Part shown: piece by piece, positions 9,015 through 43,030 of the stretch
How the letters are laid out: every line of letters starts with the position of its first letter
Numbering within the stretch: the stretch's first letter is position 1
Assembly: GCF_031178505.1 (NCBI RefSeq)
Contig: NZ_JAPSIW010000006.1
Location: forward strand, 1 to 43,052
Length of the DNA: 43,052 bases
Origin: Streptomyces sp.
GTDB taxonomy: Bacteria; Actinomycetota; Actinomycetes; Streptomycetales; Streptomycetaceae
Reading direction: 5' to 3'
Made by a program: the position numbers and the translations under genes
The notes under the pieces: model-generated
What the model saw: only the letters and a program-made list of their open reading frames with translations
What the model was told of the DNA's origin: nothing
Database searches by the model: none

Positions 9015-10403
9015 TCAGGCCCCTCCCTCGATCGGTCGGATGGCGTCCCGGAGAGCAGCGGCCAGGACCCGCGTGCGGGCGTCGGACGGCGGCGCCGAGG
9101 TGCCGGGTGCCTGGAGCTGGACGGAGAACAGGCCGGTGTGATGCAGCAGGCTCCAGTCGCTGGCGGTGACGGCAGCCATGACGGACTCCGGGGTGTATCC
9201 GGCGTCGACCAGGGTGCGGATCGTGCGGGACTGCGTGCCCTGGATGTCGGCGGCGTCCCGGGCGTCCTCCCGTAGGAACGGCACGTCCCGGGCGTCGTAC
9301 CAGAGCCGGACCGCGCCGGACGTGCTGCCGCCGGGCGGCCGCACCAGGCGGGAGAAGCTGCCCGCCGCGTTCTGCCACAGCGGGTGGATCGTGCCGTCCG
9401 CGAACCGCCGGCGGGCCTGCCCGTAGTTGCTGTACGTCGCGGCCTGGAGGCCCTCGGACAGGCCGACGATGATCGGCGGCACCCCGGCCGCCGCGGCGAT
9501 CCGGGTCTCCCCGGCGCCCTGCACCTTCGCGAAGTCCAGCTGCTGGAAGTCGCTGCCGACAACCGTGACGTCCGCACCGCCGCCCAGGTACAGCGTCTTG
9601 TACGCGTTCTCCACGCCCCGGTGGTTGGCCTCCATCTTGGCCTTGAACTTGGCGAACGCCTCCGGGCTGACCTCGCGGGCCAGGCGGACGACCATGTTCG
9701 GGGTCGCCGCGTTCTCCAGGAACTTCCGCTTGTGCCGGGCCATCAGCCCGTCGTTCTGCACCTCGCGGATCACCGGCGTCAGCCAGGACATGCCCCGGTA
9801 CGTCGCCAGCGGATCGGGCACCGGCGCGAAGTGCGCCACCTCGTCCGCCAGCAGCGCGACGGGCTCCTCGCCGGGCTCCTGGTAGATGTAGCCGAGCTTG
9901 CGCCACCCGAGGTGACCGCCGCGGTGCTCGCGGCGCTCCAGCACGATGGACACCCAGTCCGGCCGCATCCGGACCATCTCGTTGTCGAGGCGCGTCCAGT
10001 ACGCGTTGCCCGCCAGGTCGGCGTCCTGGATATCGCGGGACAGCAGGTCCTGCGTCGTCCCGCCCGGCCACGGCTCCTCCAGAAGCCGCAGATCCGACGA
10101 GCCGAACATGGCCGACGGAGTGCCGTTGTTCAGCCGCTGCCACGTGAACCGCGGCGCGGAGAACACCATCTGCCGGGCAACCATGCACGCCCAGATCACC
10201 GGGTTCGTCGCGAACAGCTGCGCGTACCCCGGCAAGTCCGTGGGCGCCTTCTCCGCGGCCTGCCCGGGCTGGGTCTGGGTGATGCCGAGCGCCGAGTAGC
10301 CGCCGTAGCCCAGGGAGTCCTGAAGCGCCTGCGCGTAGTCGTCGATCGAGCCGATCGCCCGGGACACGCCACGGGAACGGGAGGCCCGCCACAGGTTCAC
10401 CAC
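9015..10403 (-). CDS. Portal protein (HK97/SPP1-like)
   Basis: 462 residues. Typical portal features are ATNPVIWACMVARQM near the amino end, LAGNAYWTRLDNEMVRMRPD, DEVAHFAPVPDP, and AAAAGVPPIIVGLSEGLQAATYSNYGQARRRF, the conserved HK97-portal segment. It forms the dodecameric DNA channel at one vertex. The start is GTG at 10403, with GAGGTGAT upstream, lying 7 nt inside the end of the small membrane protein gene. Confidence 0.9.
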   Translation of the reverse strand: MVNLWRASRSRGVSRAIGSIDDYAQALQDSLGYGGYSALGITQTQPGQAAEKAPTDLPGYAQLFATNPVIWACMVARQMVFSAPRFTWQRLNNGTPSAMFGSSDLRLLEEPWPGGTTQDLLSRDIQDADLAGNAYWTRLDNEMVRMRPDWVSIVLERREHRGGHLGWRKLGYIYQEPGEEPVALLADEVAHFAPVPDPLATYRGMSWLTPVIREVQNDGLMARHKRKFLENAATPNMVVRLAREVSPEAFAKFKAKMEANHRGVENAYKTLYLGGGADVTVVGSDFQQLDFAKVQGAGETRIAAAAGVPPIIVGLSEGLQAATYSNYGQARRRFADGTIHPLWQNAAGSFSRLVRPPGGSTSGAVRLWYDARDVPFLREDARDAADIQGTQSRTIRTLVDAGYTPESVMAAVTASDWSLLHHTGLFSVQLQAPGTSAPPSDARTRVLAAALRDAIRPIEGGA

Positions 10404-18471: not shown

Positions 18472-18644
18472 GACCTCCACCCCCTGACGGTGCGGGCCAG
18501 GCCGGGACCGGCCAGGACGCCGAGGGCGAAGGCGGTGGCGGTGGGCTGTCCGGCGAGGGCGGCGGCGGTGTCGGCGGTGCGCGACAGCGCGGCCGGCCAG
18601 ATGAGCAGGATGCCGAGGACGATGCCGAGGAGGATGGCCTTCAT
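18468..18644 (-). CDS. Tiny two-helix membrane protein, Spd-like
   Basis: 58 residues with hydrophobic segments at about 3-18 (ILLGIVLGILLIWPAAL) and 36-50, and a basic end. The ATG at 18644 overlaps the upstream TGA (ATGA) and its own TGA overlaps the next GTG (GTGA). This double coupling supports a real gene despite its size. Its function is unknown; its location in a run of membrane proteins before the FtsK-like gene suggests a transfer accessory role. Confidence 0.65.
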   Translation of the reverse strand: MKAILLGIVLGILLIWPAALSRTADTAAALAGQPTATAFALGVLAGPGLARTVRGWRS

Positions 18645-19810
18645 ACCGTCGCCTCCGCGTACTCGGGCAGGTCGTCCCGGTGGAACAGGTTGCGTCCTCG
18701 GGCGTCCTTGGAGTGGACGGTGAGGCGTCCCGCGGAGACCCAGGAGCGGACGGTGGACTGCTCGATGCCGTAGTGCCGAGCGACGTCGGCGGACAGCATC
18801 AGCGGCGGGTCGGGCAACGGCTCACCTTCGGCGTCCTCGGCGTCCTGCTCGGGTTCCGGCGTCGGCGCCGGGCGGCCGACGATCGGCAGCAGCCGGACAC
18901 CGGGCGGGACCGCCAGCGGGACGGGCCGGACGCTCGGGACGGGCCGGGTGTCCTCGGCGTCCTGAGTGTCCTCGGGCGCGTCCTCGGCGTCCTGCCACGG
19001 CGACGGCAGGGTGATCGTGGCGAGGGCTGCGGAGTGCCGGCGGGCGGCGAGCAACTCCAGCAGCTTCGCCCGCTGCTGCTCGTCGGCACCGGCCTGGGCC
19101 TTGCCGACGGCCACGGACAGGCGCCGCTCGATCCGTGCCCGGCCGCGCGCGGCCGGCTTCATGGTGGCGAGCTTGGCGGCCAGGGCGACGGCCTTGACGG
19201 TCGCCCGGTCGCGGGTGATCTGCTCCGCGGTACGGTCCCGGACGGCGAGGCCGAGGCGGGACAGCAGCCGCTCGCGGGCCTCGCGGACGATCAGGGCGGG
19301 CAGCGACGCCGAGGCGGCGTCCGGGCGGGCGTGCCGCAGTTCGATGCCCATGGCGAGGTGCCACAGCAGCGCGGCGAGGACGGGGCCGACGACGGCGCGG
19401 ACGGTGCCGCCCACCACGCCGGATTCGCTGTAGGCGGGGATGACCTGGACGCCGGTGATGAACCACACCAGCGTGCCGGGGACGCCGGGGACGCCGTGGT
19501 CGCGAAGGTTCTGGCGGGCCATGAGGGCACAGGCGAACAGGGCCAGCTCGGCGGCGAGGAACAGGGCCGCCCGCTCCTCGATCGCCGTCATGTCCAGGCT
19601 GTGCTCGGCGAACCGCCAGGACGTGTCGCCGGAGTAGGCGGTGCAGGCGATCGCGCCGAGCGCGGCGACGACGACGGCGGCCGGGGTGCGCTCGGCGGCG
19701 CGCGGCCGGCGGGCGTGCAGCAGGGGCAGGGCGAGCGCGGCGAGGAGCAGAAACGCGGCGCCGCTGGTGATGATCGGGTGGTCCTGAACCCAGGTGGTGA
19801 CGGTGCTCAC
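18641..19810 (-). CDS. DUF2637/SpdB-like membrane protein with C-terminal helix-turn-helix
   Basis: 389 residues. About five membrane helices occupy residues 10-155 (IITSGAAFLLLAALALPLLH, AVVVAALGAIACTAY, ALFLAAELALFACALMA and others). A basic helical region at about 170-260 follows, then an acidic linker. The carboxy MerR-type DNA-binding motif is ADVARHYGIEQSTVRSWVS then GRLTVH. DUF2637-type proteins accompany FtsK/TraB-like genes on Streptomyces plasmids and AICEs. A membrane protein that binds DNA could bring the element to the transfer site. The GTG at 19810 shares a base with the previous TAG. Confidence 0.7.
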   Translation of the reverse strand: MSTVTTWVQDHPIITSGAAFLLLAALALPLLHARRPRAAERTPAAVVVAALGAIACTAYSGDTSWRFAEHSLDMTAIEERAALFLAAELALFACALMARQNLRDHGVPGVPGTLVWFITGVQVIPAYSESGVVGGTVRAVVGPVLAALLWHLAMGIELRHARPDAASASLPALIVREARERLLSRLGLAVRDRTAEQITRDRATVKAVALAAKLATMKPAARGRARIERRLSVAVGKAQAGADEQQRAKLLELLAARRHSAALATITLPSPWQDAEDAPEDTQDAEDTRPVPSVRPVPLAVPPGVRLLPIVGRPAPTPEPEQDAEDAEGEPLPDPPLMLSADVARHYGIEQSTVRSWVSAGRLTVHSKDARGRNLFHRDDLPEYAEATV

Positions 19811-23379: not shown

Positions 23380-23762
23380 GCCGCCTCACCGCCGTTCGCG
23401 GCGTCGACCTCGGCGGCCGGGGCGGGCAGGCCCTGCTGCTCGCGCAGCAGCGCGGCGAACTGGGCGCCAGACATCGTCACGAACCAGCGGCCGGGGTCGG
23501 TGGTGCCGCGTCGCTTGTGCCAGACGACGCCAAGGTTCGCGTGGTCGTTGTCGCGCTCCAGCTCGGCCTCCGCCACCCAGGCGGGCAGCTGGTCACGGGC
23601 GCAGTTCTTCACCTCGATGACGACCCCGGGGATGCCGGCGATGTCGCCGCGGTCCTGGGCGCCGCCGAGGGTGCGACGCTCGGCCTGGGCGAACCCGGCC
23701 GCCCGGAGGAAGCGGACGACCGCGGTCTCGGCGGCGGTGCCCTTGGCTTTCGATCGGCTCAC
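23376..23762 (-). CDS. PD-(D/E)XK nuclease, Holliday-junction-resolvase-like
   Basis: 128 residues. KAKGTAAETAVVRFLRAAGF (E12) precedes GDIAGIPGVVIEVKN (D40, E50-V-K52), the PD-(D/E)XK signature with the layout of Hjc-like or VRR-type resolvases. It would cut branched DNA made during phage replication or recombination. The GTG at 23762 overlaps the upstream TGA. A general structure-specific nuclease is the alternative. It belongs to the same transcript as the origin-proximal genes, fitting a replication role. Confidence 0.75.
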   Translation of the reverse strand: MSRSKAKGTAAETAVVRFLRAAGFAQAERRTLGGAQDRGDIAGIPGVVIEVKNCARDQLPAWVAEAELERDNDHANLGVVWHKRRGTTDPGRWFVTMSGAQFAALLREQQGLPAPAAEVDAANGGEAA

Positions 23763-24085
23763 AGCAGGACTCCCTGTACGGGTCGGGGCGGGCAGACGTG
23801 GGTGATCAGGACGGTGTGGGTGCAGGACCGGGCGTGCCATCGGTCGCGCCAGCGGAGCCGGGCCGGGAGGTGGTCGTGGTCGACGAGGCACCAGGCGAGT
23901 CGGTCGGCGGGGATCGCCGCCGGGTCGACGGGTGTGGGGTCGGCGCGGACGTCGACGGCGGCGACCCGGTCCGGGGTGCGGGCGGTAACGGTGTCGGCGC
24001 CGCAGCGCGGGCAGGGCGCGTACCGGACGGTTTCGGCGGCGCGGGCGGCCCGCTCGGCGATCAGATGCGCCGGGAGGCGGGTCAC
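23759..24085 (-). CDS. Zinc-ribbon-like protein, first gene after the iteron array
   Basis: 108 residues. CPRCGADTV is followed by a domain with CLVDHDH and further Cys/His (SCTHTVLITHVC). It resembles small metal-binding proteins of actinophages. The GTG at 24085 starts only 10 nt from the leftmost iteron, and its stop overlaps the next start. HNH-like chemistry is possible from DHDH, but the motif is incomplete. Confidence 0.65.
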   Translation of the reverse strand: MTRLPAHLIAERAARAAETVRYAPCPRCGADTVTARTPDRVAAVDVRADPTPVDPAAIPADRLAWCLVDHDHLPARLRWRDRWHARSCTHTVLITHVCPPRPVQGVLL

Positions 24086-24338
24086 CGAACGGCCTCGAAG
24101 GGGTGCGAAGGGGTTGCGAAGGGGTTCGCGAAGGGGTGTGCGTAGGGGTTGACCTGCAATGCGAAGGGATCGAAGGGGTTTCGCGGTCCTCCTGTTGCGT
24201 AAGGGGGGTACTGGTTTTCCCTTCCCTTATGCGCGGGAGCGTAGGAAAACCCCTTCGACCCCTTCGACTCGCAGGTCAAAGGCTTCGCAGACCCCTTCGC
24301 AAACCCCTTCGCAACCCCTTCGCACCCCTTCGCACGGC
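24086..24338. repeat. Mirror-image iteron array, candidate replication origin
   Basis: Seven units per arm of CGAAGGGG or near variants. Left arm, plus strand: 24096, 24106, 24117, 24129, 24141 (CGTAGGGG), 24162 (CGAAGGGA) and 24171. Right arm, as the inverse: 24250, 24259, 24280 (variant), 24292, 24304, 24315 and 24325. Spacings are 10, 11, 12, 12, 21, 9 on the left and the exact mirror on the right. Each arm also carries TTGACCTGC in its 21-bp gap. The centre (24179-24249) holds a smaller dyad, GCGTAAGGG against CCCTTATGC. The array fills the gap between the prim-pol/helicase gene and the coupled cluster. Spacing near one helical turn is typical of initiator-binding iterons. An RNA hairpin role is possible, as the region is transcribed. 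Confidence 0.85.
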
Positions 24339-26807
24339 TCACCGCGCACCCCCGAGGGAAGCGAGCGCGAGGCCAACGGTGACCGAGCGACGGGTGCGGC
24401 TGTCCTTCTGCTGCTCGTAGCCCTGCTCCTGCAGCCGGATCGTGAACGCCTTCATCGACATGGGGTGCCGGACTCCGGCGCGCTCGGCCCACTGCTTGTA
24501 GTTGTCGTAGAGCTGGCCGTTCTCGGTGACGGCACCGAGGACGTCGTCGGTCTGTTCTTCGAGCCAGGTGGCGAGCGGGTTGGACGTGGCGATGTGCTCG
24601 CGGGTCTTCGCGGTGACGGAGGCGGGCACGGCCAGGCCCTGCTGCTGCCAGTCGAGACAGCCGCGGATCGCCCAGTTGAGGACGCCGGACGCTTCCCGGG
24701 CGATGATCTGTTCGGCGAGGCCGCGGATGCGCTTGGCCGGGGGAACGATGACGTCCCAGCCGATGTCCTGGAGGCGGCGGGCCATGCTGTGGCTGCCGGA
24801 CACGTCGGGCAGGTGGTTCGTCGCCAGGTGGATTTTGCCGACGGGCTTGAACTCGAAGAACTCGGCGTTGAGGAACCGCGCGGAGACGGGGTCCTCGCCG
24901 GTGAGGCGCTTGACGAGTTCCTCGTCGAGGGGCTTGCCGCGGCCTTCGCTGGTGCGGCCCGTCTCGCTGGTGGACAGCAGCCGCTTGCCGACCATGCGGG
25001 CGATGTCGTTGGGGATGCCGCCGTCGCCGTGCTTGGCCATGAGGGTGGAGGCGGGCACGGCCTGGGCGTAGTCGCCGAGGAGGGCCATGACGACGCGCAT
25101 GAACACGCCCTTGCCGTTCTGGCCATCGCCGTGGTGGATGAACATGACCTGTTCGCCGGTGCTGGCGGTGAGGCTGTAGCCGACGACGCGGGCGAGGTAG
25201 GCGCGGCGGTCGGAGTCGGGCATGACGCCGTCGAGGAACTTCTCCCACATGGGGCATGTGGCGTCGGGCTGGTACCGGATGGGGGACTGCTGCATCAGGT
25301 ACAGGGACCGGTCGTGGGGAAGGAGCCGGCCGGTGGTGAGGTCGACGATGCCGTTGCCGACGTTAAGGAGCATCTCCGGCTGGTCGAAGGCGTCCATGGT
25401 GGTGTGCACGGCGGGGTACGCCTGGAGGACTTCCCGGGCCGCTGCGATCTTGGGGCGCATGCGCTGCTTGCGGGCCCACGCCTCGAACTTCTCCCGTGGG
25501 CTGGCGGGCGGCTCTTTCGCCTTGCTGTCCGGGGCCGGGGCGGGGGCCTCGTCGCTGTAGTTCGGGGCCTCGTCGTGGAGTCGGTTGATGGTGTCGACGG
25601 CGCGGGTCCATACGCCGGTGTTGGCGCCCTTCAGAGTCCAGCGGCCCTGGTCGTAGTACGCCCAGCGTTCGATGTCGGTGAGCCAGCGGATCTCGCTGCC
25701 GTACCGGTCGATGATCCGTTCGGCGTTGCCGAGGTCGTCCCACTCGCGGGCGGGCATCGGCGAGGGGAGGGCGACCGGGGCTTCTGCGGGCGCGGCCCAA
25801 CGGGCGGTGCCGGGCGCCGTGGTGCTGGGCGTGGCCGCGGGTGCGGGGGCGATGAGTCCGGCGAAGGGGTTGCGGTCGCGGGCGGCGGGCGGCCAGGGGG
25901 TGCGGGGATGAGCGATGCCTGCGGTGAGGCCGCTGTTGATGGTGGGGATGGCGCGGCCGTCGGGGTGGCCTCCGGCGCGGGCGGCGGCGAGGAGAGCCTG
26001 GCGGGCCTCGGTTTCGGTGAGGGCTCCGGCGCCGACGAGGGTGCCGATGCGGAACGCGGACTCGTTGATCTGGTTGTTCTGCTCGCCGTCGGCGGCGCGA
26101 GCGACGTTGTCGCACTCGGCCTGCACGGCGCGGCGCGTGTAGGCGTCGAGGCGCTCGGGGGCGAGCGGCATCGGCGCGGCCGGGCCCGCGGGCGCCGGGG
26201 CGGGGATGGGCTTGGTGGTGAGGGCAGCGAGCAGCCACGACGGGGCGCCGACGGGCGGCTGGCCCGGGTTGTCGAGTTCGTAGATGACGCCGGTGGCGTG
26301 GACGCTGCCGGGGCCGATGACGTAGGCGTTGCCCGCGCGGACGTCGCCGTCGAAGCGGCCTTTCAGCAGGCCGAGGCTGTTGCCGAGTTTCAGGCCGGCC
26401 GGGGCCCAGTAGTAGTCGTGGTGACCCTGCGCGGTGTGCACGCGCATCGTCGGGGTGTGCTGCTCGCCGAAGGCGGTGGCGGTGTCCTCGATGGCGCCGG
26501 GCCGGTCGGAGTCGACGACGAGCAGCTGCTCGCCGCTGGGGCCGCGGGTGGCGCCGACGAAGACGCCGACGTTGCGGAGCTGCCCGGCAAAGAGGGCGTG
26601 CGCCTGTTGTTGGTCGCGGGTGTGGGTCTTGGTGAAGGCGACGGCGGGGTGCTTGCCGCGCTGTTCGCAAGTGGCGGGTTCGTGCCCCTGGCCGATGCCG
26701 ACGCACCGCTCCAGCCCGGGGTGGTCCACGGGGAAGACGGCGAAGCCGTGACCGACCAGCCACAGGGCGCCGTCGAGTGGCGTGTCGCGGACCGGTGCGG
26801 TGCTCAA
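24339..26807 (-). CDS. Bifunctional primase-polymerase / SF3 helicase (P4 alpha-like)
   Basis: 822 residues. The amino prim-pol domain (about 10-200) has LLVVDSDRPG (D99, D101) and RVHTAQGHHDYYW. The middle is a Pro/Ala linker and primase C-like helices. The carboxy SF3 helicase has Walker A GDGQNGKG (560-567), Walker B-like KRLLSTSET (608-616) and motif C IHLATNHLP (659-667). Such proteins prime and unwind DNA at iteron origins in satellite P4 and in AICEs. The start is TTG at 26807 with GAGGAG eight bases upstream. The stop abuts the iteron array, so initiator and origin are adjacent. An operator copy lies 40 nt upstream of the start. Confidence 0.9.
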   Translation of the reverse strand: MSTAPVRDTPLDGALWLVGHGFAVFPVDHPGLERCVGIGQGHEPATCEQRGKHPAVAFTKTHTRDQQQAHALFAGQLRNVGVFVGATRGPSGEQLLVVDSDRPGAIEDTATAFGEQHTPTMRVHTAQGHHDYYWAPAGLKLGNSLGLLKGRFDGDVRAGNAYVIGPGSVHATGVIYELDNPGQPPVGAPSWLLAALTTKPIPAPAPAGPAAPMPLAPERLDAYTRRAVQAECDNVARAADGEQNNQINESAFRIGTLVGAGALTETEARQALLAAARAGGHPDGRAIPTINSGLTAGIAHPRTPWPPAARDRNPFAGLIAPAPAATPSTTAPGTARWAAPAEAPVALPSPMPAREWDDLGNAERIIDRYGSEIRWLTDIERWAYYDQGRWTLKGANTGVWTRAVDTINRLHDEAPNYSDEAPAPAPDSKAKEPPASPREKFEAWARKQRMRPKIAAAREVLQAYPAVHTTMDAFDQPEMLLNVGNGIVDLTTGRLLPHDRSLYLMQQSPIRYQPDATCPMWEKFLDGVMPDSDRRAYLARVVGYSLTASTGEQVMFIHHGDGQNGKGVFMRVVMALLGDYAQAVPASTLMAKHGDGGIPNDIARMVGKRLLSTSETGRTSEGRGKPLDEELVKRLTGEDPVSARFLNAEFFEFKPVGKIHLATNHLPDVSGSHSMARRLQDIGWDVIVPPAKRIRGLAEQIIAREASGVLNWAIRGCLDWQQQGLAVPASVTAKTREHIATSNPLATWLEEQTDDVLGAVTENGQLYDNYKQWAERAGVRHPMSMKAFTIRLQEQGYEQQKDSRTRRSVTVGLALASLGGAR

Positions 26808-28729: not shown

Positions 28730-28903
28730 TCAGGTGCTGCGCGGCGGCTCGTTCAGGCCGAGGGCGTCGAGGAGGAGCCGGAGGTCGTCGTGGTTGCGGG
28801 CCTTGCGGAGTACGAGCCGGGAGGCGGCAACGCGTTCCGCGGCGGTGGTCTGCCGTGCGGCGGTGGTGAGGGCGTCGCTGCCGCGGGCCCGGCCGGCGCT
28901 CAC
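28730..28903 (-). CDS. Small helical protein coupled to the WhiB gene
   Basis: 57 residues, basic and helical (DALTTAARQTTAAERVAASR, then LVLRKARNHDDLRLLLDALG). The GTG at 28903 overlaps the WhiB stop (GTGA). Function is unknown; the coupling supports it as a real gene despite its small size. Confidence 0.65.
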   Translation of the reverse strand: MSAGRARGSDALTTAARQTTAAERVAASRLVLRKARNHDDLRLLLDALGLNEPPRST

Positions 28904-29196
28904 CGCGCCGCCGCCTGCCTGGCGCGGCGGCGGTTCTGGGTGACGCGCCTGTAGCTGGCGTACCGCTCGTAGCCGGTGAGGCCGCCGCGGATGCCGTGCC
29001 GGTACTCGGGCCGGGAGCCGCCCTCCGTGCGGAGGGCGTCGGTGAGGCAGTCCCGCCAGACGGGGCAGTCCGCGCAGACGGCGACGGCCTTCGCGGTGCT
29101 GCGCTGGTCGTTGGGCTGGGGGAAGAAGTCGACGCCCCGGTAGGGGGGCTGGGCGCAGAGGGCGCGTGCGGTCCAGGCGGCGGTGCGCTGGCTCAT
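28900..29196 (-). CDS. WhiB-family iron-sulfur regulator
   Basis: 98 residues. C14, C41-x2-C44 and C50 are the four cluster ligands, followed by a turn motif GIRGGLTGYER (68-78) and a basic tail. WhiB-like proteins are confined to actinobacteria and their phages and bind sigma factor region 4 and DNA. A phage copy (WhiB of mycobacteriophage TM4) can inhibit a host WhiB and affect cell division; a similar host takeover is possible here. The ATG at 29196 overlaps the upstream TGA (TGATG). Confidence 0.9.
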   Translation of the reverse strand: MSQRTAAWTARALCAQPPYRGVDFFPQPNDQRSTAKAVAVCADCPVWRDCLTDALRTEGGSRPEYRHGIRGGLTGYERYASYRRVTQNRRRARQAAAR

Positions 29197-29471
29197 CACG
29201 CCTCCCCGGTGGTGCGGGCGGGGGCGGTGGTGAGGCATTCGCCGCAGGTCCAGCCGTCGGCGTGGACGATGCCCGCGGTGGCCCTGCCGCAGGGCTCGCA
29301 GTCGTTCCAGCACTGGACGGCGGCGGCGTCGTGCGGGCGGGACGGGGCGGGCCAGATGTCGAGCAGGCCGTCCAGGGAGACCTGGATGCGGTCGGGGGTC
29401 CCGGTGGCGCGCGGTCGGCGGTGGCGGCCGGTGGGGGCGGCGATCCGGCGGAGGGTGCGCAGCGGGCTCAT
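29196..29471 (-). CDS. Small Cys-rich (zinc-ribbon-like) protein
   Basis: 91 residues. A basic amino end (TGRHRRPRATG) precedes QCWNDCEPCGRATAGIVH and WTCGECL, giving C54, C58, C61, H70 and a CxxC pair. It likely holds one or two zinc ions. The ATG at 29471 overlaps the upstream TGA (ATGA). DNA or RNA binding is plausible; no family was recognised. Confidence 0.7.
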   Translation of the reverse strand: MSPLRTLRRIAAPTGRHRRPRATGTPDRIQVSLDGLLDIWPAPSRPHDAAAVQCWNDCEPCGRATAGIVHADGWTCGECLTTAPARTTGEA

Positions 29472-35072: not shown

Positions 35073-35813
35073 TTGAATTCGGAGCTTCAACGCGCTATTG
35101 ACGCCGCCGGACTCAGCCGGTCGCGCCTCGCCCGTAGAGTCGGGGTGAGCAGCAAGACGGTGGACCGTTGGATCACAGACTCCAACCGTGTCCCCCACCC
35201 GCAGACGCGGGAGGACGTGGCTGGGGCGTTAGGAGTTGACGCAGACGTGCTGTGGCCGAAGATCCGGGGCGCGGTGACGCGCGGCCCCGACCGGGAGATC
35301 GTGGCGACGTACCCGTCCCGCAACGCGTGCCCGACCAGTGTGTGGGAGCGCCTCCTCGACGACGCGACGCGGGAGGTCACCTACGCGGGCTACACCAACT
35401 ACTTCATCTGGCAGGAGCAGCCGCGCGTCGGCGATCGGCTCGCGGCCAAGGCGGCAGCGGGCTGTGCGGTGCGGTTCCTCGTCGGCGATCCGGAGTCCGA
35501 GGTGACGCGCTGGCGTGAGGACATCGAGGCGGTGCCGCTCACCGTGTCCACCCGCATCCAGATCACGCTGGACGCGCTGAGCCGGATCGAGGGGGACGGG
35601 CTGGAGGCCCGTCTGTCTGACAGGCACATCGCCTTGTCTGTGTTCCGCTTCGACGACGAGATGCTGGTGACTCCGCATCTGGCCGACCTGCTCGGGCACG
35701 ACTCGCCGCTGTTTCACCTGCGGCGCCGTGGCAATGGCGGCCTGTTCGACCCGTTCGCGGAGCATGTCGAGGTGCTGTGGGCGCAGGCCCGGCCGGTGCC
35801 CGCGGCCAGCTGA
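35073..35813 (+). CDS. XRE helix-turn-helix protein with PLD-like C-terminal domain
   Basis: 246 residues. The amino domain (LQRAIDAAGLSRSRLARRVG onward) is an XRE helix-turn-helix, and the carboxy half (YAGYTNYFIWQEQP; CAVRFLVGDPESEVTRWRED; LSDRHIALSVFRFDDEMLVT; LFHLRRRGNGGLFDPFAEHV) looks like a non-catalytic phospholipase-D-like or ligand-binding fold common in streptomycete regulators. No HKD motif is present, so it is not a PLD enzyme. The start is TTG at 35073 with GGGGGGA upstream. It ends at a perfect terminator facing the lysis genes and is isolated from the phage operons, as expected for a lysogenic accessory gene. Confidence 0.75.
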   Translation: MNSELQRAIDAAGLSRSRLARRVGVSSKTVDRWITDSNRVPHPQTREDVAGALGVDADVLWPKIRGAVTRGPDREIVATYPSRNACPTSVWERLLDDATREVTYAGYTNYFIWQEQPRVGDRLAAKAAAGCAVRFLVGDPESEVTRWREDIEAVPLTVSTRIQITLDALSRIEGDGLEARLSDRHIALSVFRFDDEMLVTPHLADLLGHDSPLFHLRRRGNGGLFDPFAEHVEVLWAQARPVPAAS

Positions 35814-41987: not shown

Positions 41988-42941
41988 TCACGCGGTCTCG
42001 TACCTGGGGTAGAAGGTGAGGTCGACGGCGCTGCCCGCCTCGGCGCCGTCGAGCTGGAAAGTCACCGGCGTCTCGCCCGGTGGCAGGCTCCAGAGCACGG
42101 CGCCGGGCCAGTCGAGTCCGGCGACGAGGTTCTCCCCCGTCCCGGACCGGACCCGGGGCGGGTCGGTGGACACGGTGACCGTCTCCCCGGCAAGGAGCGG
42201 CCCGTGCGGAGTGTCCGCCATCGTGAGCGTGAAGCTCTCGCCGGTGTCACCGCGGGTGAACGTGATCACGCTCGCGGGGCCGGTGATCCGCCACTCCGGC
42301 CATACGTCGACGTCGCCCGGGTTGGTGACCGTGGTGGCGCCCAGGACCTGGCTGGAGCTGACCGACGGGTACGGCACCAGATAGTCGACCTGGGTACCGG
42401 TCTCACGGTGCACGACCTGCGGGGCCAGGTCCAGCCAGTACGGGTCTTCGCACCACAGGGTGACGACGGCCGAGTCCCACGTGATGCCGGTCGCGGTCTG
42501 CCCGCGGCCGTCCCAGCCGGTGCTGTAGTAGACGGCGATCCGGCGGCCGGTGCCGTCCGGGCGGACCACCTCCAGCCAGCCCGGCCCCTCCCGAAGCGTC
42601 CGCGTGAACGCGCGAGCGAGCGCCCGCCAGTTCGCCGTGAACACGAGATGGTCGGCGCCCTTGACCAGCACCGGCCAGACGATCGAACGTGGCTGCGGCT
42701 GGACATGCCGCAGCCGGGCCCCGCCGCGCGGGTGCGGATCGGACGTCAGCACGTAGGGCGCGGCCCCCAGCCCGGACACGCCGTCGGCGAGCGTGTACCA
42801 GTCCGCTGCCAGGTCGGTCATCGGCCAGCGGGTCCCCGCCGGGTCGACGTAGGTGACCGTCGCGTAGCCGATCTCCGGGATCTCCACCGGCGGAGTGGTC
42901 GGCTCCTCCGGGGTGACGACCGGTGCTGTGATCAGGGGCAT
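41988..42941 (-). CDS. Distal tail protein (Dit-like, siphovirus tail family)
   Basis: 317 residues. WPMTDLAADWYTLADGVSGL, then VWPVLVKGADHLVFTANWRA and TLREGPGWLEVVRPDGTGRR show the Dit/siphovirus tail component fold; the carboxy part is a beta-sandwich (SFTLTMADTPHGPLLAGETV). It joins the tube to the baseplate. The ATG at 42941 follows directly after the tape measure TAG (42944-42942). Confidence 0.85.
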   Translation of the reverse strand: MPLITAPVVTPEEPTTPPVEIPEIGYATVTYVDPAGTRWPMTDLAADWYTLADGVSGLGAAPYVLTSDPHPRGGARLRHVQPQPRSIVWPVLVKGADHLVFTANWRALARAFTRTLREGPGWLEVVRPDGTGRRIAVYYSTGWDGRGQTATGITWDSAVVTLWCEDPYWLDLAPQVVHRETGTQVDYLVPYPSVSSSQVLGATTVTNPGDVDVWPEWRITGPASVITFTRGDTGESFTLTMADTPHGPLLAGETVTVSTDPPRVRSGTGENLVAGLDWPGAVLWSLPPGETPVTFQLDGAEAGSAVDLTFYPRYETA

Positions 42942-43030
42942 CTATCCGGGCCTCCCCACGCGCTGCCGCGCCTCTTCCTGCCGCTGGATCAGCCGCAGGT
43001 CCTCCGCGCTGATCACTGACTGGCGGGGGT
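42905..43030. repeat. Terminal direct repeat, right copy
   Basis: Identical over 126 bases to positions 1-126. After 43030 the sequence leaves the left copy, although GACGT at 43032-43036 still matches. This supports a circular map of about 42.9 kb with a variant or chimeric tip. Confidence 0.95.

Follow-up and report, generated by a model that had tools for sequence, protein, structure and literature searches.

The window analysed here is a 43,052-nucleotide stretch of Streptomyces DNA which, judged from its sequence, is a prophage or phage genome occupying the whole of contig C353 of the assembly. It contains 14 CGAAGGGG-type units in two facing, mirror-spaced arms, directly behind the gene of a primase-helicase. 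We conclude that this array is very probably the replication origin of the prophage, where the adjacent primase-helicase would bind the units and two assemblies would load head to head for bidirectional replication. The origin reading, which a preliminary description of the window had put forward, draws its support from the position of the array, from an architecture that phages Sfi21 and A2 also have at their annotated origins, and from the fold of the C-terminal domain of the primase-helicase, which is that of the P4 origin-binding domain. The array, the gene order, the conserved geometry, and the C-terminal fold rest on computation.

Results

A mirrored array behind a primase-helicase gene

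The array occupies the gap 24086-24338. The primase-helicase gene has its stop at 24339, on one side of this gap, and the next gene starts at 24085, on the other; both genes are on the minus strand (Table 1). Direct reading of the letters gave 14 units, seven per arm, with the arms facing each other. Eleven units are exact copies of CGAAGGGG, two have one mismatch, and one is degenerate; the variants are CGTAGGGG at 24141 (+), CGAAGGGA at 24162 (+), and the degenerate CGAAGCCT at 24280-87 (-), with three mismatches to CGAAGGGG. Start-to-start steps, taken from the outermost unit inward and with the degenerate unit counted, are 10, 11, 12, 12, 21, and 9 bp in both arms, and a TTGACCTGC element lies inside the 21-bp gap of each. 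Unit number, orientation, spacings, and the TTGACCTGC element in the matching gap are thus all as the preliminary description had reported them; the small dyad that it saw in the centre does exist but is weak (TGCGTAAGGG versus CGCATAAGGG, 8 of 10 positions matching).

Table 1. Coordinates of the array, its parts, and the adjoining genes in the window.
Feature	Position	Strand	Details
Primase-distal arm, seven units	24096..24181	+	Unit starts 24096, 24106, 24117, 24129, 24141, 24162, 24171
Primase-proximal arm, seven units	24247..24332	-	Units 24325-32, 24315-22, 24304-11, 24292-99, 24280-87 (degenerate), 24259-66, 24250-57
Distal-arm TTGACCTGC element	24149..24157	+	ACCTGC begins 19 bp from the start of the inner unit
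Proximal-arm TTGACCTGC element	24271..24279	-	ACCTGC at the same 19-bp offset as in the distal-arm copy
Centre between the 86-nt arms	24182..24246		62% GC versus 72% in the window; presumed melting region
Prim-Pol/D5_N/SF3-type primase-helicase, 822 aa, presumed initiator	24339..26807	-	Pfam, PHROGs
C-terminal winged-helix domain, residues 741-822, presumed unit-binding	24342..24587	-	Pfam Pox_D5 (741-796), structure model
Gene beyond the array, 108 aa, phrog_16156, function not known	23759..24085	-	PHROGs

The two arms (24096-24181 and 24247-24332), each 86 nt long, agree at 76 positions, while the best of 60 local shuffles reached 50, and an exact mirror has a probability of 0.006 when units are placed at random within the arms. 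Across the whole window, CGAAGGGG with at most one mismatch occurs 66 times against 67.6 expected, and only three isolated exact copies lie outside the array. The unit is therefore no commoner in the full window than expected, and the signal is in the clustering, orientation, and order of the copies. With seven units pointing each way, the array is unlike a directly repeated iteron plasmid origin, where all units have one direction. The 71 bp between the inner units are 56% GC, compared to 65% in the arms and 72% in the window. A search of the entire window against Rfam gave no match at the gathering threshold.

Pfam matches in the 822-aa protein are Prim-Pol PF09250 (residues 14-191), D5_N (362-528), DUF5906 (559-678), and Pox_D5 (741-796), and PHROGs places it with phage primase families. 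A profile built from 11 relatives matched, in the PDB, the primase C962R (AsfvPrimPol) and chain 7ola, which is titled "DNA primase" and which we take to be a SaPI5 protein. The structure model of the full-length protein was poor (mean pLDDT 47.9), and only the C-terminal domain, modelled alone (79.2), was used. It is a winged helix, which VIA-align matched to RFX5 (Z 10.1), the RFX DNA-binding domain 1dp7 (Z 9.8), ASFV PrimPol (Z 9.8), and the P4 origin-binding domain 1ka8 (Z 8.9, 2.5 A, 78 residues, 22% identity); in a Foldseek search with the same model, 1ka8 was not among the 50 matches listed. Since the P4, RFX, and ASFV PrimPol scores lie within about one Z unit, the comparison makes the fold clear but gives neither the closest relative nor the DNA target.

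A portal gene (9015-10403), an integrase gene, and an amidase gene were also found in the window with Pfam. Once detrended, the cumulative GC skew is lowest near 12.5 kb and highest near 29 kb; it has no extremum at 24.2 kb, where the preliminary description had suggested looking for a change, and the skew lends the origin reading no support. Positions 1-126 and 42905-43030 of the contig are identical, and its final 22 bases diverge; this 126-base repeat could be due to a circular or terminally redundant molecule, to an assembler overlap, or to a direct repeat.

Conservation of the mirror among Streptomyces relatives

A search with the prim-pol protein yielded three loci in named genomes, belonging to three Streptomyces species, and 11 in viral contigs. 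L003 and L006 are one contig, and the distinct loci with primase identity of at least 57% are L001-L005 and L007-L010. The array is located directly behind the primase gene in all nine of them. Further away, no array was present in the 450 bases read behind the gene in L011-L013, whose primases are 43-44% identical, and AGTGACCC units follow the gene in L014, whose primase is 30% identical. The preliminary description had considered the case of a relative that retains the gene and lacks the repeats; there is none among the nine loci at 57% identity or above, but such relatives do occur at greater distance.

When viral contigs were searched with a half-arm pattern, nine stretches matched, seven of which were arrays already in the set; the remaining two, in L038 and L042, were read as chance matches and not as arrays. 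The same pattern matched five of 295 genomes of the genus. In G000, G135, and G192 both arms were matched, and in G269 a single arm, which belongs to a genuine array; the match in G091 reads as a chance one. The arms of G192 are the same as those of L001, and G192 was left out of the counts.

The exact seven-unit mirror was observed in eight of 12 distinct arrays (the window, L001, L003, L004, L005, L007, L008, and L009); in L001 and L003 the proximal arm alone has one extra unit at its outer end. Conserved mirrored spacing, which the preliminary description had suggested looking for in related phages, is thus seen in the Streptomyces group. As for the other four, L002 has an exact mirror with six units per arm, some steps in G135 deviate from the mirror by 1 bp, and a near-regular arm (10-12-11-12-21-9) is kept in L010 and G269 on the primase-proximal side only. 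The inner units are separated by 86 bp in seven relatives as in the window, by 97 bp in L009, and by 100 bp in G135. In L009 the units are changed to CGAAGGAC, with one outer unit being CGAAGGGC, and every spacing is unchanged. The C-terminus of the L009 primase-helicase is 58% identical to that of the window, and the C-terminus of L002, where the unit is unchanged, is 53% identical. Between A2 and R9.2, two phages with differing units, the identity is 63% in the C-terminus and 68% elsewhere. These identities do not establish that the C-terminus changes along with the unit.

Facing units in other phages

A detector of mirrored repeat pairs that is blind to the sequence of the unit was applied to 35 sequences, with one to three shuffles of each. 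A cluster was detected behind the primase in 15. Arrays were known beforehand in six of these (the window, L002, L009, L010, G135, and G269); the other nine are L014, Patt, JF1, HedwigODU, Ekdilam, GMA4, P9 (weak), BPP-1, where one annotated gene separates the primase from the repeat, and Sfi21, where the sole match in 40,739 bp falls inside the annotated origin of replication. A weak cluster behind the Pthi1 primase was not counted. Nine clusters were found at other places, while the shuffles gave two in all, so the background in real sequences is above that of shuffles. The P4 genome had no detector cluster anywhere.

Listing of units revealed facing units in four phages missed by the detector, A2, R9.2, PSA, and TMW 1.591 P1; those of A2 accompany an annotated rep_origin directly behind the primase, and those of PSA are in a mixed but mirrored order. 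Neither a cluster behind the primase nor listed facing units were found in 14 of the 35 sequences (Shady, BaileyBlu, AvGardian, SuMoo, JCL1032, Wrath, DrManhattan, WhoseManz, BayC, Mae-JY04, whose record stops there, PeteyPab, VroomVroom, L030, and L011). Of seven further contigs, L092, L093, L094, and L096 have facing units, L087 has a few GTGCAAT copies only, and no facing units were found in L097 and L098. The units of L093 are AGTGTCG, and its outer steps are again 10-11-12.

The geometry of the window recurs in part in distant phages. In the mycobacteriophage Patt, identity to the window primase is 31% outside the C-terminus and 25% within it; the primase of a second mycobacteriophage, JF1, scores 29.8%. 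The proximal arms of Patt and JF1, built of AGGGACAT/GGGGACAT units, have offsets of -75, -65, -54, -42, -10, and 0, compared to -75, -65, -54, -42, (-30), -9, and 0 in the window. ACCTGC is at offset 19 in both, as in the window, and their distal arms have only three units. Tested against random placement, in 12 entries including the window, the exact mirror gave P values of 0.0015 for PSA, 0.03 for A2, and 0.050 for Hedwig, and of 0.07-0.87 for the other eight. As the mirror is mostly not significant outside the Streptomyces group, we claim it as exact for that group only.

In 23 of 25 origins the centre is poorer in GC than the arms; in G269 the two are equal, and in P9 the centre is richer. 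A universal central motif was sought and rejected, as the best 7-mers between the inner units, GCGCATA and TATGCAA, occurred in 4 of 16 representatives, a number that shuffled sequences reach as well.

In six phages, L051, L053, L057, L064, L070, and L076, a DNA polymerase gene is annotated close behind the primase-helicase gene. None of them has a detector cluster there, and they may initiate replication differently.

The ACCTGC(G) element

ACCTGCG is present in 9 of 17 representative origins (mean of 0.37 and at most 3 in 500 shuffles), and it is also the most frequent 7-mer of a second set (8 of 15 representatives, against a maximum of 6 for any 7-mer in 100 shuffles); its density in the arrays is 10 times that in the flanks. 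Since the motif was spotted before it was tested and the representatives include related ones (the Streptomyces and mycobacteriophage groups), this enrichment is only suggestive. Apart from 19, ACCTGC is found at offsets of 28-29 and 37, which add roughly one and two turns of the helix; its offset is 17 in L094, whereas Sfi21 has it at 67. The direction of the motif is reversed in HedwigODU, Ekdilam, L093, L094, and Sfi21, and it is missing from 7 of the 17 origins (L096, GMA4, BPP-1, A2, R9.2, PSA, and P9). The scatter of offsets, the reversals, and the absences count against a fixed register of ACCTGC.

Elsewhere, CTGACCTGCGGTTT is present just upstream of the primase in the array-less Streptomyces phage Shady (L051:2110-2235), and GACCTGCGGTTT in L045, a stretch of a genome of the genus Streptomyces. 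Judging by these two occurrences, the second element may also exist independently of the origins considered here.

Discussion

The arrangement described above is of a known kind, found in satellite islands, Sfi21, and A2. PICI origins, according to PMC6092414, directly follow the initiator gene on its 3' side, and their AT-rich region is always flanked by two sets of iterons. The window array likewise lies immediately 3' of the presumed initiator gene and consists of two facing sets, while its centre is AT-rich in relative terms only (56% GC versus 65% in the arms and 72% in the window). It is set apart from PICI and SaPI origins, as these are described, by seven units per arm, exact mirror spacing, and GACCTGC, and unlike those satellites the window is a phage with a portal and other phage genes. 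The origin of the Streptococcus phage Sfi21, reported in a 1998 paper and treated in PMC6356513, is a 302-bp non-coding region directly behind a putative primase gene, with facing pairs of units and a very AT-rich centre. It differs from the window array in its unit, TAGTTACT, in having fewer units without a significant outer mirror, and in being associated with two annotated primase genes rather than with one fused protein. In the Lactobacillus phage A2, four units per arm face inward around an AT-rich centre, directly behind the primase, but the unit is ACGGGAG, the units are sparser, and the mirror is one of three pairs (P 0.03). The window-type, Sfi21, and A2 arrays indicate that whole phages share the PICI-like kind of origin.

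Replication of P4 requires both ori1 and crr. P4 resembles the window in having short iterons, some of them inverted, in the location of crr just behind the alpha gene, and in the winged-helix origin-binding domain of alpha, whose fold, but no more than the fold, is that of the window C-terminus, other winged helices scoring alike. P4 differs in that its units (GGTGAAC) are in mixed orientation. It has an annotated origin and a separate crr; in the window one array was found, and the only other detector cluster (18613-18711) is of an unrelated CCGAGGA repeat. The preliminary description had spoken of a P4-like prim-pol; this holds for the helicase and the winged helix, but the primase is of the archaeo-eukaryotic Prim-Pol type (PF09250) and not a Toprim domain, which PMC4234260 assigns to the P4 primase. 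The crenarchaeal plasmid pRN1 is similar in that a region required for its replication lies behind a gene encoding an archaeo-eukaryotic primase, an SF3 helicase, and a winged helix (PMC4234260); it is described as a stem-loop without iterons, in contrast to the window, where there are 14 iterons and these are the most conserved part. Within P4 crr (L068:4291-4590), each repeat is made of an iteron pair 9 bp apart that faces a pair 18 bp apart.

We infer that copies of the primase-helicase would bind the units through the C-terminal winged helix. The assemblies on the two arms, being oppositely oriented, would then position two hexameric helicase rings head to head, one on each side of the centre with its lower GC content. 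The rings may melt the centre, the Prim-Pol domain would prime, and two forks would depart in opposite directions; bidirectional initiation would fit the symmetry of the array. GACCTGC, at its fixed offset from the inner unit pair, may be a second site, perhaps the start of the primer or a contact of another domain.

An inverted repeat of this size might instead act in folded form, as a DNA cruciform, an RNA hairpin, or an RNA terminator or processing signal; action as a folded structure has been proposed for the stem-loop origin behind the pRN1 replication gene and for BIP-1. RNA of the array is predicted to fold back into a single long hairpin (-184.7 kcal/mol; with 200 shuffles z is -15.9, with 40 it is -21.3), 16 of 17 origins fold better than their shuffles with z of -2.5 or more extreme, and PMC4234260 reports that pRN1 replication requires an intact stem-loop and proposes the same for phage proteins of this type. 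Yet the strength of folding across the 17 origins is uneven (z from -21.3 to -1.5). In an alignment of ten arrays (L010 and G269, with a distal arm that cannot be aligned, and the duplicate G192 were omitted), left and right arms match at 506 of 560 unit positions (90%), 68 of 70 GACCTGC positions (97%), and 140 of 210 spacer positions (67%). In spacers, 425 sequence pairs have a change, which is compensated in 41 and affects one side only in 316; in units, 507 pairs have a change, which is compensated in 170 and affects one side only in 243. In 7 of 10 arrays the arms differ in the same way at the end of the fifth unit, and in L009 the units changed together, which pairing alone would not require. 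A terminator search found no terminator-like site on the transcribed (-) strand and one on the plus strand (24186-24209). Because complementarity peaks in the units and GACCTGC, facing protein sites explain the array better than a hairpin does, and we regard action through folding as unlikely; foldback is possible, yet pairing is not the best-conserved feature of the arrays. The long cruciform that the preliminary description had offered as an option becomes less likely by the same figures.

Protein sites could also make the array an operator or silencer, at which a repressor or another helix-turn-helix (HTH) protein of the phage controls the operon. The array does lie between two genes of the same direction, and proteins with HTH domains are encoded at 18641-19810 and 35073-35813, but a search of 23600-24800 for promoters of the sigma-70-like type gave none, isolated exact CGAAGGGG copies elsewhere in the 43-kb window are limited to the three noted above, and the position behind the primase recurs across phages of several hosts. 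We consider this role very unlikely. Least probable of all, to the point that we give it hardly any credence, is that the array serves an extrachromosomal prophage as its site for partition or incompatibility: the 126 identical bases at the contig ends make a circular or terminally redundant molecule conceivable, but no ParA/ParB family was found among 20 window proteins scanned with Pfam, the window has an integrase gene, and in Sfi21 and A2 it is origins that are annotated at the corresponding place.

A broader idea can be entertained, which we put forward tentatively and with more doubt than confidence: phages with an archaeo-eukaryotic (AEP) primase and a D5 helicase may encode their origins in geometry, with swappable units and preserved phasing and facing. 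Unit sequence would then be exchanged wholesale while inner pairs 8-10 bp apart persist, and the positional code would load two self-loading SF3 hexamers head to head. ACCTGC(G) would be a second site in helical register to the inner pairs in many of these phages, possibly the start of the primer, and PICI origins and the "stem-loops" of pRN1 and BPP-1 would be variants of the same design.

The base-pair-exact mirror, its survival of a change of unit, and the ACCTGC(G) element are apparently new in the literature searched, which most subscription journals lie outside. To our knowledge, little is known about the placement of phage and satellite SF3 helicases as two opposed rings. An exact-mirror origin, together with a natural relative in which the unit has changed, provides a ready series for determining which distances matter and how specificity changes.

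A gene for a WhiB-type regulator is located upstream of the primase-helicase gene, at 28900-29313, and an annotated whiB gene is also present near the primase in Gordonia phage WhoseManz and Corynebacterium phage PeteyPab.
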